32,755 nucleotides of DNA, taken from the IMG/VR virus record IMGVR_UViG_3300006641_000019, positions 1 through 32,755 of that record. One strand, written 5' to 3'. Shown piece by piece: positions 5,875 through 32,755 of the stretch. The notes below the pieces were generated by a model. It was not told the DNA's origin. It saw only the letters and a list, made by a program, of their open reading frames with translations, and did no database searches. Within the stretch, counting starts at the first letter, position 1. Each line of letters starts with the position of its first letter. The translations under genes and the position numbers were made by a program. Source of the DNA: a virus.

Positions 5875-6300
5875 CTATATAGAGAAAATGCCTGAAGCGT
5901 TGAAGGTTACGGTGATATTACCGCCGTTTGGAGTAACAGGGAGTCCACTTGCGGCAACATCAATGAAACAGATAAGTGGACTTGTTCCTGCTGTTCCTGT
6001 GTCTTTAAAGATGATCAGTGCTTCCACACTGACTCCTGTGACGGAAGTAAAAGTTACATCTGCTGCATCGAATGTACCGCTTGTAACTGACTTTGAGCCG
6101 AGTGTTTGTGCAGTTCCTACCAACGCACTAGAAGCCGAAGTCCAAAACTCATCCGCTGCGTTGTAGGTGTAGGTGCCGGTATCGATGAGCGCAATTTTGA
6201 TTGTGTCATCAATGAGGTCAACGGCGGAGCCTGATGTAATGCCGAGTGTGCCTGGGTTAAGAATTTTCTCTTTGTATTTTGGATAGAGTACGTTTGTCAT
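5875..6300 (-). CDS. Conserved phage structural protein (YPKYKE family), unknown role
   Basis: A 141-residue beta-rich protein: VLYPKYKEKILNPG, then IKIALIDTGTYTYNAADEFW, SVTSGTFDAADVTFTSVTG, ALIIFKDTGTAGTSPLICFI and GLPVTPNGGNITVTFN. This is a widespread pattern in tailed phages, usually just after the portal or near head-completion genes. It is probably a virion component, possibly a capsid or tail decoration. It starts at an ATG one base after the portal stop codon, so the two are translated together. Confidence 0.8.
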   Translation of the reverse strand: MTNVLYPKYKEKILNPGTLGITSGSAVDLIDDTIKIALIDTGTYTYNAADEFWTSASSALVGTAQTLGSKSVTSGTFDAADVTFTSVTGVSVEALIIFKDTGTAGTSPLICFIDVAASGLPVTPNGGNITVTFNASGIFSI

Positions 6301-6301
6301 A

Positions 6302-8929
6302 TTAGTCCATTTCCATACCTAAAACATTGCCTGTATTATCAGTTATAAGTTTCCCTACACGTTTTTCTGGTTCCTCTGTAATCTCAATACCAACTGGATT
6401 ACCTAAATCATCGGTAATGATGGTGCCTCGCTTCTTCTTCTTTTGTTGTTGCTGTGGTGCAATTTGTGTCAATGAAGAATTTTGCGCAACATTCTTTATG
6501 TTGTCCATTGTCATACGGATTTGCTCAAGTTGCTGCTCCTGCTGTAGTCGTCGCTCCTCCATGAGCTTTTCTTGTTGAGCAAGTCGGAATTGTGTCTGTT
6601 GTGCTTCCAACTTCTGAACTTCAAGCAATCCTTGCAGCCTATTATTCTCTGCTGTTATTTCATTCTTTATGCCATCGTTCTGATTCATAGCTTGAACTTT
6701 AAGCATATCAACCTGAACCGAATTGGCTTTTATCTGCAACTCTTGTTGCTTCAACGCCAACTCTTGTTCTGCTACATACTGCTCAAGTTGAGCTTTCTGT
6801 AGCTGGATATTGCCAGCAAGTTGCTCACGTTGCATCTTCATCTGCTGCTCTTGTGCCGCAAGTATATTGCGCTCATGACCATCCTGAGCTTGAATCTGAG
6901 TTGCTTGGATTCGTGCCTGAGCTTCCATTTGAGCAATCTGCATACGAGCTTGCATTTCCTGCATGACAGGGTCTGGAGGAGGTGGTTGTTTAGCTGCCTC
7001 CTCTTTAGCCTTAGCAATCTCACCAATCTGGTTAAGTGCTTTGGTGAAGATACCATCAAGTTCTTTGCCAGACTTGAATCGCTTGATTACGTTCTGGAAT
7101 AACTCAATGCTGAATCCGAGAAGTGGTGGATACTGCTCAATAAGTGACCGCATTTGGTTGAAGAACTCACCAGCGGTAGACATGAGTTGTGCTCCTTCCT
7201 GCTGCTCTTGAGCTTGGTCAATCGCAACCATCGAGTCAGAAGCAATCTTGATTCTGTAGTTTATCTTGTCATCATCTCGTAAGAATCCAAGGATTTGGTC
7301 TTTAACCATAGCAATCTGCTGCTCTGGCGTTGGACCCATTGGCATAGGTGGAGGAGGTGGCATCATCTCCATGCCTGGCTCACTTGGTGGCATACCCTCT
7401 TGCCCCATCTCTGGCATCGGAGGAGGTGGAGGAAGTTCAGGCATTGGCGGTAATACAGCCTCAATCATCCTATCAGCATCGCCAACATCGAAGATTGTCT
7501 CTGGATCAAACTGCTCGCAGATAATGGTTCCAAGTTTAGCGATAGCATCAGATATGAACTTGCAGAACATGTTCTGACGCACAACCAGTCCGAGCGATGA
7601 CCACTGAGACTCTAAGCGATTAGCAGTAGCAGACTTGTATTGCTCGCTTGTTCCACGAAGCAGGTCAGATACTTTCAGTGTTTCGTAAAGCTGCTGCAAT
7701 GCTGATTGCCGTGCTGCTTGAAGTTGCTGCAAAGCATTAACGTATGGCGCAATGTCCATGAACTCAACGCCAGATTGCAAGCCACCACGAGACTTGTAAC
7801 TGGGCCAATTCATTACAGGAACCATCTTTAAATCGCCAATCATAAGCTGCTCAACTTGCAATCCAAGTGAAGCATCATAGAGCGCATTAGTGCGAATGGT
7901 TTGTGTGACTGCGTGGATACGAGTTGTGAGACGCTCAATCTCTAAGATTTGGTCTTTAACGTGTGCATAGTCTGATACTGGAATAACAGAATCTGGATCG
8001 GCACTCTGAGCGATTACAGAGCAAGGATAGAAGCCTTCAAAGTCGATAGGTGGCTCTGACTCGTGGATGATAAACTTCTCAGCAGATTTGTGACCCCAGT
8101 AAACCTTTTCAGTCTCCTCGCACCAAATCTCGTATACTTCTGCCTTGCCTTCATACTTATCAGAGTCTTTGTTCCAGTCTTTAGTTGCCTTGTCTGGAAA
8201 CGAGTCAAAGTGCATCTTGTCGGCAACTTCTACGCCGAATAGTTCCTCTGCTTGTGGTCGTGTAAGATATGCACGACGAGCACGCCATTCTATTTCAGTT
8301 TCGTTTCTAGCATCTGAGCAGAAATAGTCGTTGTATTGAACAACGTCTAAGCAAGCATCATCGCTTTCTTTCTTCTCAATCTTAACCTTAGCTAAGATTA
8401 AGCCTCCTGGACCTTCACGTTGGCTGATAATCTCTTGAGTAAATGGTTGTCCTTGGTCGTCTACTAGCGTTCCATCAGCAGCAGGGAACAACGCAATCTC
8501 CATCTCTTCTTCTTCTATCTCAGCTTCATATCGAGCCCAAAGAACGGCACGACCAGTAAGAAGGAATTGCAAGGCAGAGTTATACCCTACGTTGTCGAAT
8601 GGAAACTCGCAGTCCATAAGGTACTGGATATTGCGCTCAAGGATAACAGCTGATAACTCCTCAAGAGTGCCGCCAGTGCGCTTACGAAGGCTTACTTCTG
8701 CTTTTGGCGTGGAAGAATAATAAGCAGGTAGGAGAGTATTAACACAATACCACCAGACATTAAGTCGTCGCTCAGTATCATTTAGAATCCCCACCTGCTT
8801 CTGTGCGTTATAAACACGGATGGATTCTTCAGCCATTTCAATGAACTTCTTGGAACGCTCCTCTGCACGAGTAATCTCTGTTTTCCAATAAGTAGAGGAG
8901 AACCGTTCAACTAATGGCTTAATCTTCAT
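6302..8929 (-). CDS. Portal protein with long Pro/Met and Gln-rich C-terminal extension
   Basis: An 875-residue dodecameric portal candidate, through which DNA would enter and leave the head. It follows TerL with a 4-base overlap. The N-terminal 500 residues look like a P22-type portal: RRLNVWWYCVNTLLPAYYSS near residue 55, VVQYNDYFCSDARNETEIEW near 195, and the clip/stem region with SYKSRGGLQSGVEFMDIAP and SVLQQLYETL-like helices. A Pro/Met-rich linker follows (about 500-545, PPPPPMPEMG). After that comes a long Gln/Glu coiled coil (about 645-830) and two C-terminal repeats (835-850 and 859-874). It is longer than the 725-residue P22 portal, consistent with a podovirus with a helical barrel. 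Confidence 0.85.
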   Translation of the reverse strand: MKIKPLVERFSSTYWKTEITRAEERSKKFIEMAEESIRVYNAQKQVGILNDTERRLNVWWYCVNTLLPAYYSSTPKAEVSLRKRTGGTLEELSAVILERNIQYLMDCEFPFDNVGYNSALQFLLTGRAVLWARYEAEIEEEEMEIALFPAADGTLVDDQGQPFTQEIISQREGPGGLILAKVKIEKKESDDACLDVVQYNDYFCSDARNETEIEWRARRAYLTRPQAEELFGVEVADKMHFDSFPDKATKDWNKDSDKYEGKAEVYEIWCEETEKVYWGHKSAEKFIIHESEPPIDFEGFYPCSVIAQSADPDSVIPVSDYAHVKDQILEIERLTTRIHAVTQTIRTNALYDASLGLQVEQLMIGDLKMVPVMNWPSYKSRGGLQSGVEFMDIAPYVNALQQLQAARQSALQQLYETLKVSDLLRGTSEQYKSATANRLESQWSSLGLVVRQNMFCKFISDAIAKLGTIICEQFDPETIFDVGDADRMIEAVLPPMPELPPPPPMPEMGQEGMPPSEPGMEMMPPPPPMPMGPTPEQQIAMVKDQILGFLRDDDKINYRIKIASDSMVAIDQAQEQQEGAQLMSTAGEFFNQMRSLIEQYPPLLGFSIELFQNVIKRFKSGKELDGIFTKALNQIGEIAKAKEEAAKQPPPPDPVMQEMQARMQIAQMEAQARIQATQIQAQDGHERNILAAQEQQMKMQREQLAGNIQLQKAQLEQYVAEQELALKQQELQIKANSVQVDMLKVQAMNQNDGIKNEITAENNRLQGLLEVQKLEAQQTQFRLAQQEKLMEERRLQQEQQLEQIRMTMDNIKNVAQNSSLTQIAPQQQQKKKKRGTIITDDLGNPVGIEITEEPEKRVGKLITDNTGNVLGMEMD

Positions 8930-14760: not shown

Positions 14761-15420
14761 ATGAATGATGCAATTTTTAAGGCGTTTATCGCCGCACAGA
14801 AAGAGTTTGGACCAGCTCTAAAGACCAGCACCAACCCACACTTTAGATCACGCTATGCAGACCTTTCAGCGTGTGTTGAAGCTGTAATCGATGCGCTCAA
14901 TTCTAATGGCTTAGGATTGGTTCAGGTAACTCATCCTTGCGAGTCAGGAGTAAGCGTTGAGACAGTTTTGGTACATGAGTCTGGACAAACCATGACAAGT
15001 GGCGTGTTACATGTACCAGCTTCAAAGCAAGATGCTCAAGGCTATGGGTCAGCACTGACATACGCTCGCAGATATAGCTTAATGGCAATCTGCGGCATTG
15101 CTCCAGAGGATGATGACGGAAACAAGGCGAGCAAACCTATTGAGGTTAAAACTAAAGACATAAAAGTTGAGCGTGTCTCAGTAGTTAATAAGGCAACAGG
15201 AGAAGTAACTGAGGTACTCAATACCACTAAAAAGTCACGGATTGAGAAAACGATCTATGACATCAGGACACTCGCCGAAGAACAGCAACCAGCAGCAGCA
15301 GAATATCTGCGGCAACACAGTTGCGAGTATAGCGAAGCACTCGGAGTCTGGACCTGCCCAATCAGACTTCAACGGCTTCAAAGTTGCGTAGTTGAGAAGG
15401 TGGCTAATGAAAAGGCTTAG
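14761..15420 (+). CDS. erf: ERF-family single-strand annealing recombinase
   Basis: A 219-residue protein that anneals complementary single strands in phage recombination and genome circularisation. The family signature is clear: NPHFRSRYADL (25-35), LNSNGLGLVQVT, QGYGSALTYARRYSL (93-107) and APEDDDGNKA (114-123). The C-terminal 95 residues are a charged tail, as in other ERF proteins. The start carries a variant of the repeated initiation box (GGAGAATAAGACTATGA). No partner 5'-3' exonuclease is next to it; two other nuclease-like genes lie downstream. Confidence 0.95.
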   Translation: MNDAIFKAFIAAQKEFGPALKTSTNPHFRSRYADLSACVEAVIDALNSNGLGLVQVTHPCESGVSVETVLVHESGQTMTSGVLHVPASKQDAQGYGSALTYARRYSLMAICGIAPEDDDGNKASKPIEVKTKDIKVERVSVVNKATGEVTEVLNTTKKSRIEKTIYDIRTLAEEQQPAAAEYLRQHSCEYSEALGVWTCPIRLQRLQSCVVEKVANEKA

Positions 15421-15622
15421 AGTAGAAATACCTAAAAAACCAAAACAATTACGGCGTTATGATGCACCGCGTCCTGGATATAGGCGTTGGACAACTCAAG
15501 TAAAACTAGAATTGTTCAATGATTTCTGCAAAGTAGCAGAGAATGAGGATAAGGTACTGATTGACGCTGTTGAAGAAGCACTTAGTAACTGGACATACCA
15601 TGATGGAGACGTACATGAATAA
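15407..15622 (+). CDS. Small basic protein, unknown (71 aa)
   Basis: ATG 15407 overlaps the end of the ERF gene by 14 bases and has GAAGG upstream. The first 30 residues are very basic (MKRLRVEIPKKPKQLRRYDA, RPGYRRWT) and could bind DNA or RNA. The rest is an acidic helix (FNDFCKVAENEDKVLIDAVE). It may be a nucleic-acid binding accessory to ERF; nothing more specific can be said. Confidence 0.7.
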   Translation: MKRLRVEIPKKPKQLRRYDAPRPGYRRWTTQVKLELFNDFCKVAENEDKVLIDAVEEALSNWTYHDGDVHE

Positions 15623-15860
15623 GCATATCGCATTAGAAGCTCTAGGATACGTTTTAAGCAAAGATAGATACCTTGGTGATGGTCGGATAGCCATGAGGGA
15701 AAAGAAAGCCTACACGGCTGGCGTAGAGGCTATAAAAGGCATATTGGCTAATAGACTGGATAGACTTCTGTGGAAAGCTGAAAAGAGTAACACAGACTAC
15801 GACCGTGCTAGGCTAGATGGCGCACTGTGGTTGTATGAGGTTTTAGAGGACGAAGAATAA
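15615..15860 (+). CDS. Small helical protein, unknown (81 aa)
   Basis: ATG 15615 with GGAG at 15605-15608, overlapping the previous gene by 8 bases. It reads MNKHIALEALGYVLSKDRYL, then AMREKKAYTAGVEAIKGILA and the acidic end ALWLYEVLEDEE. It is fully helical and charged. The stop is 5 bases before the tRNA gene, so gene and tRNA are on the same transcript. Confidence 0.7.
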   Translation: MNKHIALEALGYVLSKDRYLGDGRIAMREKKAYTAGVEAIKGILANRLDRLLWKAEKSNTDYDRARLDGALWLYEVLEDEE

Positions 15861-15865
15861 CAAAC

Positions 15866-15941
15866 TGGCTAGTAGTTCAGTTGGTAGAACAGACGGCTGT
15901 TAACCGTCATGTCGTAGGTTCGAGTCCTACCTAGCCAGCCA
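15866..15941 (+). tRNA. tRNA-Asn (GTT), CCA encoded
   Basis: The cloverleaf is complete. The acceptor stem TGGCTAG/CTAGCCA is perfect, the D stem is GTTC/GAAC, the anticodon stem GACGG/CCGTC holds loop CTGTTAA (anticodon GTT), and the T arm is GTAGG-TTCGAGT-CCTAC. The discriminator base is G, as in bacterial tRNA-Asn, and CCA is at 15939-15941. It is 73 bases plus CCA. It probably supplements host Asn decoding or replaces a tRNA cleaved by host defence (inference). Confidence 0.97.
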
Positions 15942-16007
15942 AAAAAATACCCTGCATTAAACTCAGGTCGTATGGCACATCCATGCCATTCCGAATTTAG
16001 TGCAGGG
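15941..16007 (-). terminator. Terminator for the initiator gene transcript, long branched stem
   Basis: Arms 15950-15964 and 15993-16007 pair over 15 positions with only G-T wobbles or a mismatch. Inside, ATGGCA (15972-15977) pairs with TGCCAT (15984-15989). On the minus strand the stem is followed by TA and seven T (plus A run 15941-15947). It lies 70 bases beyond the stop of the initiator gene. Confidence 0.8.
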
Positions 16008-16076
16008 TCAAACCTCGATGACTAGTCGAAGTTTCTTGGAGACATGGAAAGACCATGACTCAGCTAAGGTACCATC
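16008..16076. other. Two further hairpins between tRNA and initiator gene
   Basis: AAACCTCGA (16010-16018) pairs with TCGAAGTTT (16026-16034) with one mismatch and a 7-base loop. CATGG (16043-16047) pairs with CCATG (16053-16057), extended by GAG/CTC and CTT/AAG across a mismatch and bulges. Together with the adjacent terminator stem, nearly all of 15950-16068 can fold. This could be a small RNA on the minus strand ending at the terminator, or a structured 3' untranslated region. Confidence 0.55.
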
Positions 16077-16553
16077 TCAAAACCGCTTCTTCAATCCGAA
16101 CCTCTCAGCAGCTTCATTAACTTTATCTAAGTTTGGTTTTGGTTGTTCTCTTTGTAATTTATCTTTGTAGTTGGATCTTTGTATATGGATCTTTGTATTG
16201 GTTCTTTTTGACCCAGGTTGTTGGTTCAATTTGACCCCCCCACTGGTCCAATTTGACCCAGGTAGGCGGTCATTTTGACCCAGGTTAGGCACTGTTTTTA
16301 GTGTCCGTTTCATGCCTCGATAGCTAATTTCTAGGTATCCTAAATCAACAAGAGTTTTGATTACTCTCCTAACCGTTGACTCGCTCATCCCAAGTTCTGC
16401 AGATATGTGCGCTCGACTCGCAAAGCATGACAATCCTTGCGCTTCAAATTCAGAAACATAGGCAAGTAGAACAGCCTCATCTCTGCCTACTGTTTTTGAT
16501 ATGCGTTTGTTGACCTTGAAAAAAAGGTCATCGTCTGATAATTTATTTTTCAT
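16077..16553 (-). CDS. Winged-helix replication initiator (lambda O-like) containing the origin
   Basis: 158 residues. The N-terminal 80 residues are a HTH_36-type winged helix: AYVSEFEAQGLSCFASRAHI, SAELGMSESTVRRVIKTLVD (recognition helix about 57-70) and LGYLEISYRG (wing). Residues about 89-135 are a polar linker whose DNA carries the iterons and AT-rich repeats. The short C-terminus is helical and charged (NLDKVNEAAERFGLKKRF) and may contact the host helicase machinery. In lambda, the O gene has this same plan and O binds its own iterons. The start is ATG 16553 with AAAGGA 12 bases ahead. No helicase loader gene follows it. The function is inferred from domain plus DNA layout. Confidence 0.8.
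   Translation of the reverse strand: MKNKLSDDDLFFKVNKRISKTVGRDEAVLLAYVSEFEAQGLSCFASRAHISAELGMSESTVRRVIKTLVDLGYLEISYRGMKRTLKTVPNLGQNDRLPGSNWTSGGVKLNQQPGSKRTNTKIHIQRSNYKDKLQREQPKPNLDKVNEAAERFGLKKRF
16149..16204. repeat. AT-rich direct repeats (candidate DNA unwinding element)
   Basis: TCTTTGTA starts at 16149, 16162, 16176 and 16190, spaced 13, 14 and 14 bases. The two inner-right copies extend to GGATCTTTGTAT, which resembles the GATCTnTTnTTTT 13-mers of bacterial oriC. The period is not a multiple of 3 in the coding frame, so the repeat is kept at DNA level, not for the protein. Confidence 0.8.
16208..16286. other. ori: Iteron array, candidate origin of replication
   Basis: TTTGACCCAGGT occurs exactly at 16208, 16253 and 16275, with a partial copy (TTTGACCC) at 16231. 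Start-to-start spacing is 23, 22 and 22 bases, about two helix turns, so an initiator would bind one face. GGTTCAA or GGTCCAA follows inside two of the units. The array sits beside the AT-rich repeats and inside the winged-helix initiator gene, matching lambda ori (four iterons in gene O next to an AT-rich block). Confidence 0.85.
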
Positions 16554-16585
16554 AGAGGAACAATTCCTTTAGCACCATTCAAAAG

Positions 16586-16620
16586 CCACTCATTCCCGCC
16601 AAGGTATCGAGTGGTTTTTT
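16586..16620 (+). terminator. Rho-independent terminator, probably bidirectional
   Basis: CCACTC (16586-16591) pairs with GAGTGG (16609-16614) and six T follow (16615-16620); the A run at 16581-16584 gives a weaker T tract on the minus strand. It separates the excisionase-like gene from the initiator gene and would stop plus-strand early transcripts that pass through the origin. Confidence 0.75.
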
Positions 16621-16814
16621 CATTCCTTGTTTCTATTCTTCAGCCATTCTTCAACTTCACTTAACTTGAAACGTCTGGACTTTCTAATCCGTAACATCGG
16701 CATGCCCTGACGAATCAGTATTTCAATCATTGGTCTTCCTACCTTGAAATGTTCGATCACTTTGTGTAAGTCGACATAAGGTTCTAATTGTTTTGTATTG
16801 TCTTCCATAGTCAT
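16620..16814 (-). CDS. Excisionase/AlpA-like helix-turn-helix protein
   Basis: 64 residues, a size and form typical of the MerR-like HTH_17 family: VDLHKVIEHFKVGRPMIEIL (first helices), RQGMPMLRIRKSRRFKLSEV (wing and hydrophobic core), then EEWLKNRNKE. Such proteins bind and bend DNA as excisionases or act as small regulators. No integrase is present, so a role in control of the neighbouring origin or initiator gene is more likely. A start at the internal ATG (16808) is equally possible. Confidence 0.8.
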   Translation of the reverse strand: MTMEDNTKQLEPYVDLHKVIEHFKVGRPMIEILIRQGMPMLRIRKSRRFKLSEVEEWLKNRNKE

Positions 16815-16856: not shown

Positions 16857-17159
16857 ATGGCACGACCATTACAAACATGGAAAAACAAGGGTATCGACAT
16901 AGCCGCATGGAGTACCAAGAACGGCGGTATATCGTTCACCATTCGCAAGACGTATAAACCAAAAGATGCAAACGAGTGGCAGGAAACTAAGACGTTCTTC
17001 CCAAACGACCTAGCTGTTCTCGCTGATCTCATCAAGCAAGCTACAACCTGGGCACACGAGGAGTTTGGCGAACCTGTACCACAGATTGATACACGTCCTC
17101 CGCATCCCAAGGTCGCCGCTATCGTGAAAGAGATTGTAGAGGATGACATACCCTTTTAG
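16857..17159 (+). CDS. Putative single-stranded DNA binding protein with SSB-type acidic tip
   Basis: 100 residues from ATG 16857 (GAGG 6 bases ahead). The body has strands and a helix: TKNGGISFTIRKTY, ETKTFFPNDLAVLADLIKQA. A Pro-rich linker (DTRPPHPK) leads to the end IVEDDIPF. The last residues match the conserved SSB C-terminal tip (DDDIPF), which in bacteria recruits PriA, RecO, RecQ and other repair proteins. The body is not a recognisable OB fold; a PC4-like fold is possible. It sits between the origin and nuclease genes. The SSB role is inferred from tip and context. Confidence 0.65.
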   Translation: MARPLQTWKNKGIDIAAWSTKNGGISFTIRKTYKPKDANEWQETKTFFPNDLAVLADLIKQATTWAHEEFGEPVPQIDTRPPHPKVAAIVKEIVEDDIPF

Positions 17160-18603: not shown

Positions 18604-18983
18604 TGAGACAGAAACGACCGCTGCGGCGACCAGAGGAACAAGAACAAACGGCGTTTTTCGATTATTGTAGAGCTATGGCGCATGTTCATAGTGGCTATGC
18701 TTTGGCGTTTGCCATTCCAAACGAGCGTAAAGCCTCTATACAGCGCCGTGTTGCAATGAAACGAGCAGGTCTTACTAAAGGTGTACCTGACATTTGCGTG
18801 CCTGTAGGCAATGATAAATTCAATGCCTTGTATATTGAAATGAAGGTTAAGCCCAACCGTGCTAGTCCAGAACAGATGGACATACTCCGCAAGTTAAACG
18901 CTGTAGGTAACTACGCTGTGATTTGCTGGTCGGCTGATGATGCAATCGAAATCATAACTAAGTACATCAATAATCAGTTATGA
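18603..18983 (+). CDS. VRR-NUC domain endonuclease
   Basis: 126 residues from ATG 18603 (overlapping the previous stop; upstream TTG/GTG starts are possible but unsupported). It is a minimal VRR-NUC protein of the PD-(D/E)XK superfamily: RRPEEQEQTAFFDYCR with the first Glu (12-15), FAIPNERKAS (37-45), GLTKGVPDICVP with the catalytic Asp 63, and YIEMKVK with Glu 79 and Lys 81. The conserved Gln 91 follows. Phage versions cut branched DNA such as Holliday junctions, which is useful for resolving replication intermediates before packaging. Confidence 0.93.
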   Translation: MRQKRPLRRPEEQEQTAFFDYCRAMAHVHSGYALAFAIPNERKASIQRRVAMKRAGLTKGVPDICVPVGNDKFNALYIEMKVKPNRASPEQMDILRKLNAVGNYAVICWSADDAIEIITKYINNQL

Positions 18984-19459
18984 AGCACGACATGGGAAAC
19001 ACAGAACAAGAAAAGGAATACCATGAAGTGCCAGAACGCAATCTTTGGTTTGCAGTCATTGAGCGAGCGTTAAAAGATTACTGCTACTTCTTTGATAGAC
19101 TTATCAACCCAGGCTCAACGCATCTCGTATACTCAGACGGTCTAAATCATAAAGACCAGTTTCAACTCAAAGCTATATACGAGTTTAACCGCCTACGTTG
19201 GTTTCTATTTGAGAAAGAGCCAGCAGAGTTCAACCTAGCCTACCTTGCTGATCAACTATACGAGGATGGAGACGGTGCCGCTGCAAGCATCCGTAAGGAA
19301 GCTATTCGGCAATTCAAAACTCACTTTGATGAAGCAGAGCGTCGTGGGCAATTCATGAAGATAATACACTACATCAAAGAGAATACTGGCGTAGCGTACT
19401 CAGAAGCAGCGGATAAGGTAAGCCCGTTACGCACCAAGCGATACAGGCTTAGTCGCTAG
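18980..19459 (+). CDS. Phage protein, last early gene, unknown (159 aa)
   Basis: The ATGA overlap with the VRR-NUC gene shows coupling; an alternative start is M5. It is a helical, aromatic-rich protein: ERNLWFAVIERALKDYCYFF, then FNRLRWFLFEKEPAEFNLAY and AIRQFKTHFDEAERRGQF. It ends basic. The late position in an early operon would suit a late-gene activator or antiterminator, but no such motif is visible. Its TAG stop shares bases with the stop of the convergent holin-like gene (CTAG at 19456-19459). Confidence 0.75.
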   Translation: MKHDMGNTEQEKEYHEVPERNLWFAVIERALKDYCYFFDRLINPGSTHLVYSDGLNHKDQFQLKAIYEFNRLRWFLFEKEPAEFNLAYLADQLYEDGDGAAASIRKEAIRQFKTHFDEAERRGQFMKIIHYIKENTGVAYSEAADKVSPLRTKRYRLSR

Positions 19460-32643: not shown

Positions 32644-32755
32644 TTAGTACAGTGCCACAATAAGTGTAGCAGTTGTTGCAGCCATAACATTTTTTGCAAA
32701 CACTGGTAAAAGTGTTCCTGCTGGTACAGTCAGTGAAACAGCCGCTGAATCATCG
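32644..32755 (-). CDS. Spike base protein (RCAP_Rcc01079-like), 3' part
   Basis: This is the same gene as the minus-strand frame at 1-223, entering from the right window edge. It encodes the last residues, ending in AATTATLIVALY, with stop TAA at 32644-32646. The stop is 13 bases before the ATG of the downstream LamG gene, whose AGGA ribosome site lies in that gap, so the two are probably co-translated. Confidence 0.8.
   Translation of the reverse strand, partial: DDSAAVSLTVPAGTLLPVFAKNVMAATTATLIVALY
32676..32755. repeat. 80-bp terminal direct repeat, right copy
   Basis: Exact copy of bases 1-80. The base before it (32675) is the natural upstream neighbour of base 1 in the closed molecule. 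Confidence 0.97.

Follow-up and report, generated by a model that had tools for sequence, protein, structure and literature searches.

A likely lambda-O-type replication origin within the gene of a compact winged-helix initiator, exchanged as a cassette among uncultivated phages

Where would a phage start its replication when its putative initiator is a protein of 158 residues, whose own gene carries two sets of phased repeats? The question is raised by the virus record IMGVR_UViG_3300006641_000019 of IMG/VR, analysed over its whole length of 32,755 bp (the window). The record has an exact direct terminal repeat of 80 bp (positions 1-80 and 32676-32755), which makes it a complete circular genome of about 32,675 bp. 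The phage group is known here from uncultivated-virus contigs alone, several of which are fragments. The portal protein (6302-8929, minus strand) is 21-30% identical to portals in phage records (Mx8, Mx9, Bradyrhizobium, Stenotrophomonas BUCT555), and it revealed no close cultured relative among the phage records of the collection.

The coordinates of the locus are given in Table 1. The open reading frame described by the first-pass annotation is real and lies on the minus strand. Its product matches Pfam HTH_36 (PF13730) with an E-value of 6.9e-7 (29.4 bits, above the curated cut-off of 25) and the PHROG families of replication initiation (1.8e-9) and O-like proteins (3e-8); DnaD-like families are also matched, through the winged helix. 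An AlphaFold2 (AF2) model, built from three sequences, predicts three helices (residues 24-38, 47-54 and 58-71) followed by two strands (74-79 and 82-87), and gives no confident structure past the winged helix, over about 70 residues to the end of the protein. The top Foldseek matches of the winged-helix domain are generic winged helices (E about 0.01). A tblastn search of 50,697 phage records gave no match, and a protein search in genome_contigs found no relative. The protein had been called a new initiator; the family matches place it, as a short and divergent member, in the known winged-helix/O-like superfamily.

Table 1. Features of the initiator locus and its surroundings (positions in the window)
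Feature	Position	Strand	Remarks
ERF annealing protein/recombinase	14761-15420		replication neighbourhood
Conserved 80-aa gene adjoining the tRNA	15618..15860	+	probe for further cassettes
tRNA-Asn(GTT)	15866..15941	+	marks the right-hand side of the cassette
Probable intrinsic terminator of the initiator transcript	15942..16008	-	long stem then T run; inverted repeat I1; fold z -5.1
3' hairpin 2	16010..16034	-	constant loop CTAGTC; both sides of 6/9 pairs changed in at least one relative
3' hairpin 1	16039..16061	-	GAG-T-CATGG..CCATG-T-CTC; covariation counts
Initiator gene	16077..16553	-	158 aa; winged helix, disordered linker, short conserved tail; ORF, Pfam, PHROG, AF2
C-terminal peptide NEAAERFGLKKRF	16080..16118	-	13 residues; common to initiators with different DNA-binding domains
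Presumed unwinding element	16149..16197	-	four TACAAAGA, at 16190, 16176, 16162 and 16149
Iteron 4 GGGTCAAAAAGAACC	16200..16214	-
Iteron 3 GGGTCAAATTGAACC	16223..16237	-	previously described as partial; core intact, upstream ACCT replaced
Iteron 2 GGGTCAAATTGGACC	16245..16259	-
Iteron 1 GGGTCAAAATGACCG	16267..16281	-
Winged-helix DNA-binding domain	16293..16484	-	residues 24-87; recognition helix about residues 56-71; AF2
64-aa HTH_17-like gene	16620..16814	-	upstream of the initiator, same direction; conserved flank
Divergent SSB-like protein	16857..17159	+	SSB-type C-terminus (..DDIPF), tail kept in relatives
159-aa protein	18980-19459	+	conserved in 14 related loci; last gene of the plus-strand early block

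The repeats lie between the DNA-binding domain and the tail, as the first-pass annotation had it. Over the whole 32,755 bp, TTTGACCC occurs solely at 16207, 16230, 16252 and 16274 on the plus strand, plus one inverted copy at 16005, and the longer TTTGACCCAGGT is found at 16207, 16252 and 16274. The four iterons and their spacing of 22-23 bp are thus real, and the positions first quoted for them were one base too high. The adjoining AT-rich repeats, TCTTTGTA, were located at 16149, 16162, 16176 and 16190, 13-14 bp apart as reported, with a stray copy at 6269. On the gene strand the spacings are 22, 22 and 23 for the iterons, or about two helical turns, and 14, 14 and 13 for the AT-rich repeats. 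On this coding strand the AT-rich repeats follow the iterons directly, the first of them beginning 17 bp after iteron 4 begins. The iteron dyad GGTC-AAAAT-GACC is clear in iteron 1 and imperfect in the other three. The inverted copy at 16005 was considered as a fifth iteron and discarded: it shares bases with the terminator stem, and relatives do not retain it as an iteron.

The repeats are held at the DNA level, as had been argued from their periods. Indeed, the copies of GGGTCAAA lie in frames 2, 0, 1 and 0 and those of TACAAAGA in frames 2, 1, 0 and 1, so that all three reading frames are used. The real gene contains two different 8-mers in four copies each, whereas none of 20,000 synonymous recodings drawn with the phage codon usage has any 8-mer in four copies (the maximum is three copies, in 174 of them). 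Two other proposals did not survive. The likeness of some AT-rich repeats to oriC 13-mers is at chance level, GATCTNTTNTTTT with up to three mismatches giving 129 matches against 134.8 expected, and the GC skew, for which a turn near 16.2 kb had been predicted, tracks gene orientation and marks no origin. A triplet of TACAAAGA was also tried as a general signature of initiators; it was found at 94 loci of bacterial genomes, where almost every match is to unrelated tandem or low-complexity sequence, and was dropped as a signature on its own.

Homologues of the initiator are encoded by the related loci L021 (L005 is identical over the initiator) and L004. The L021 protein is 56% identical to that of the window, and its iterons, GGGATCGGAATCC, keep the same 22-22-23 spacing. 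In L004 the iterons are GGGGGCANAATTAAACC, and the three copies closest to the AT array are 23 bp apart. Both loci retain four TACAAAGA at 13-14 bp. Between the window and L021, the DNA of the AT array is 93-96% identical (93% over aligned codons), compared to about 57% in the DNA-binding domain, and this array is the best conserved DNA within the initiator gene; the iteron stretch is the least alike segment (41%). Where the residue is identical, the codon is identical as well in 15 of 16 cases in the AT array, and in 18 of 49 in the DNA-binding domain (Fisher p 8e-5). It therefore appears that the sequence of the iterons changes quickly, while their phase and the unwinding repeats do not, which is the outcome that the first-pass annotation had proposed to look for in relatives.

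Repeats bound by a small DNA-binding protein might also be intragenic operators, through which the winged-helix protein would regulate its own gene, with replication starting elsewhere. A small repressor would indeed look much the same, a winged helix that has a disordered tail and lacks a catalytic domain, and the nearest PDB folds are repressors such as CzrA and DtxR. However, the sequence matches of the protein are to replication initiators, four phased iterons next to four phased AT-rich repeats are the anatomy of an origin, and the AT array is conserved above the rest of the gene. The sites are also away from the gene start, being in the 3' half, and the genes searched include no second recognisable initiator. 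Autoregulation is therefore very unlikely to explain the repeats.

The strongest evidence for an origin is that of relatives, and includes the same locus in other phages. This locus was searched for at the DNA level with the conserved stretch that follows the stop codon, then at the protein level with the product of the adjoining 80-aa gene. Both probes lead to the same place, between the SSB-like gene and tRNA-Asn, where the initiator is replaced: the related phages carry differing winged-helix initiators, nearly all with iterons and AT-rich repeats of their own. The flanks of the window and L128 (the SSB-like gene, the 64-aa gene, the tail codons, the 3' hairpins and the tRNA) are 78-100% identical in most 50-bp segments, against 32-54% over 16151-16600, which covers the binding domain, the iterons and the AT array. 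The L128 cassette has the iteron ACGCCAAATTGGCAT and AT repeats TACCAATA; the latter are also found in L130 (a partial gene), with the iteron GCGGCCAAAATGGCC. L131 and L142 combine GTGCTCAAAATGAGCAG with TACCTAGAT, L132 and L144 combine GTGTCCAAAGTGGACAG with TACCTAGAT, and L139 and L146 have the iteron GATCTGTATCAA with AGATC-type repeats. In L129, two iterons stand at the extreme end of the gene, and no AT array could be recognised.

The initiator frames of L132 (3917-4249) and L144 stop at 110 aa, at the first iteron, and the other iterons, the AT array and the tail-coding DNA are kept past the stop codon; truncation and frameshifting are candidate explanations. These two loci also have a second winged-helix-like protein, encoded by a 141-aa ORF just upstream of the initiator, and the L144 record has two HTH_36 matches at the initiator locus.

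The recognition helix (residues 56-71) and the iteron covary. The binding domains of L139 and L146 are 66% identical, share 13 of 16 helix residues and have the same iteron; likewise, L131 and L142 share 14 of 16 helix residues and the iteron. L131 and L132, whose domains are 83% identical, share 12 of 16 helix residues and have different iterons, the change being from TYI to PYR in the helix and from GCTC to GTCC in the half-site. The window and L021 share 8 of 16 helix residues and their iterons differ. Near-identical helices with identical iterons are the pattern that would be expected of matched initiator-site pairs, in a sample that is small and not phylogenetically independent.

The main replication could instead depend on recombination, by means of the ERF recombinase and the SSB-like protein, or start from an unrecognised origin, the intragenic origin being secondary. 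The replication neighbourhood contains ERF and a VRR nuclease (both assigned by Pfam/PHROG families). The presence of ERF is consistent with this mode, and so are L137 and L138, in which the initiator and the 64-aa gene are absent beside tRNA-Asn. These phages would have another mode of replication, or an initiator elsewhere; their records, however, are partial. Most relatives have an intact cassette that is constrained at the DNA level, and the swaps to new cassettes that are internally matched argue for continuing use, which makes a secondary role very unlikely. Beside the tRNA-Asn of L137 and L138, C-rich repeats and a TTCTTTGTA-like remnant persist.

A partition or incompatibility site, similar to a centromere and bound by the winged-helix protein, is the least probable reading, and an extremely remote one. 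Iteron arrays bound by small DNA-binding proteins do also act as centromeres, and the AspA-DNA and pNOB8 centromere-binding proteins are among the weak fold matches; on the other hand, no ParA-like gene was found among the early genes searched, and the AT-rich repeats would be left without explanation.

Assuming an origin, the helicase has to be loaded. No lambda P-type loader had been seen in the sequence, and a profile search of the complete genome for a helicase or a lambda-P or DnaC/IstB-type loader (profiles PF06992, PF01695 and PF03796) likewise found none, although a loader from an unknown family could escape such a search. Neither helicase nor IstB was found by profile search in two relatives of 33-34 kb. 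The 159-aa protein at 18980 was considered as a hidden loader and has no significant family match. The helicase would thus be loaded through the tail of the initiator or by a host factor.

This tail is itself conserved. The peptide NEAAxRFGLKKRF, or a close form of it, ends the proteins of the window, L021, L128, L130, L139 and L146, and many pairs that share it have binding domains which are just about 30-40% identical. Its codons vary synonymously (TTC/TTT, GGA/GGT, TTG/CTT, AAG/AAA), which indicates that the peptide is conserved, not the DNA alone. It is missing from L131/L142 and L004 and is therefore not universal. The peptide may recruit the replisome. A tentative extension, which we consider somewhat less probable than its contrary, is that this one portable peptide docks several divergent DNA-binding domains on the same replication machinery of the host or phage SSB. 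It would thereby stand in for both the loader and the C-terminal domain of O, and the cassette exchanged as one unit would comprise binding domain, iterons and unwinding repeats.

The SSB-like protein is conserved across the group and belongs to no Pfam or PHROG family. It is read as an SSB because of its C-terminal DDIPF tail, which is of the bacterial SSB type; its fold model is mediocre (pLDDT 69) and has no significant fold match. On the other side of the initiator gene, two conserved hairpins follow the stop codon and precede the terminator. Over both (16010-16061), 8 of 17 pairs are changed on both sides, compared to 1.7 expected in shuffles and 0-4 when the pairing is slid. Homologues of the hairpins occur in L021, L128-L131, L137-L139, L142, L144 and L146, thus even in two loci that have no initiator gene (L137 and L138). 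Rfam matched the tRNA alone in this region, with no match for the hairpins. They may form a structured RNA or, as single-strand DNA, an element of the origin.

The layout is that of lambda O and ori-lambda (PMC3349717, PMC6022878, PMC7466680). Lambda O (NC_001416) also has an N-terminal DNA-binding domain and, in the linker, four iterons with hyphenated dyads, annotated 20-24 bp apart, after which comes an AT-rich stretch with a purine-rich coding strand (...ACAAAAGACACTATTACAAAAGAA...). The lambda-O-style reading of the first-pass annotation fits everything that was tested, including lambda itself, with the same order of parts. The differences are also clear. Lambda O has about 300 aa, a C-terminal domain that contacts P, and the P loader as a neighbour, whereas the present protein has 158 aa, a tail of 70 residues and no P; the AT stretch of lambda has no regular four-fold repeat, unlike the array of this phage. 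The locus would work like the lambda ori but is no O/P module, since it has neither the C-terminal domain nor the loader. In summary, it is very probably a lambda-O-type intragenic origin in a compact initiator devoid of O C-terminal domain and detectable loader, exchanged as a single cassette.

Other systems share parts of this organization. In the PLE satellites of Vibrio cholerae, the DNA-binding part of RepA covaries with the origin, its C-terminal part is conserved, and replicon modules are swapped by recombination (PMC8263062). The PLE ori is intergenic, apart from repA, and belongs to a satellite; here, in a phage, site and gene are one unit, so that one pair of crossovers exchanges both. 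The plasmid origin RK2 oriV, with its initiator TrfA, has iterons and an unwinding element with four 13-mers, of which the winged-helix Rep binds one strand specifically (PMC4081077). The four direct AT-rich repeats beside the iterons resemble it, but the Rep of RK2 has two winged-helix domains and its sequences are different. Several annotated phage initiators also have linker repeats 20-25 bp apart: those of Staphylococcus fPfSau02 and E. coli mEp460_ev081 are GGTCAAAATG, 22-23 bp apart, and in mEp460_ev081 and L014 the linker repeats are followed by ACAGAGA or TACAAAGA repeats. These HTH/DnaD-type initiators (fPfSau02, mEp460_ev081, L014) are longer, about 250-350 aa, with a C-terminal region, and two Gram-positive examples of the type have a helicase gene nearby. 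The literature searched offers precedents in lambda, Stx-phage, RK2 and PLE, and none of its papers recognisably concerns this phage group.

The following model, of a self-contained phage replicon, can be proposed. The 158-aa protein would bind the four iterons of its own gene, probably as dimers, each iteron being a hyphenated dyad with half-sites GGTC and GACC around an A-rich centre. The complex would strain and open the four adjacent TACAAAGA, one strand of which would probably be held sequence-specifically, as by plasmid Rep proteins, and host replication proteins would then be recruited. Since no phage loader is detected, this recruitment would probably occur via NEAAxRFGLKKRF and/or the DDIPF tail of the SSB-like protein. 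Homologous exchange would take place at the flanks, in the 64-aa gene upstream and in the tail codons, the 3' hairpins and the tRNA downstream; as site and protein are one gene, it would swap the replication specificity in one step.

The phages of this group provide natural matched sets. In L131/L132, nearly identical proteins differ in both helix and iteron; in L139/L146 the proteins diverge more, their helices are similar and the iteron is shared; and a number of binding domains terminate in one short peptide. Both the specificity code and the putative docking peptide are testable in fragments of about 500 bp. The locus therefore bears on how winged-helix initiators read iterons, and on the way in which a minimal phage initiator recruits the helicase when it has no loader.
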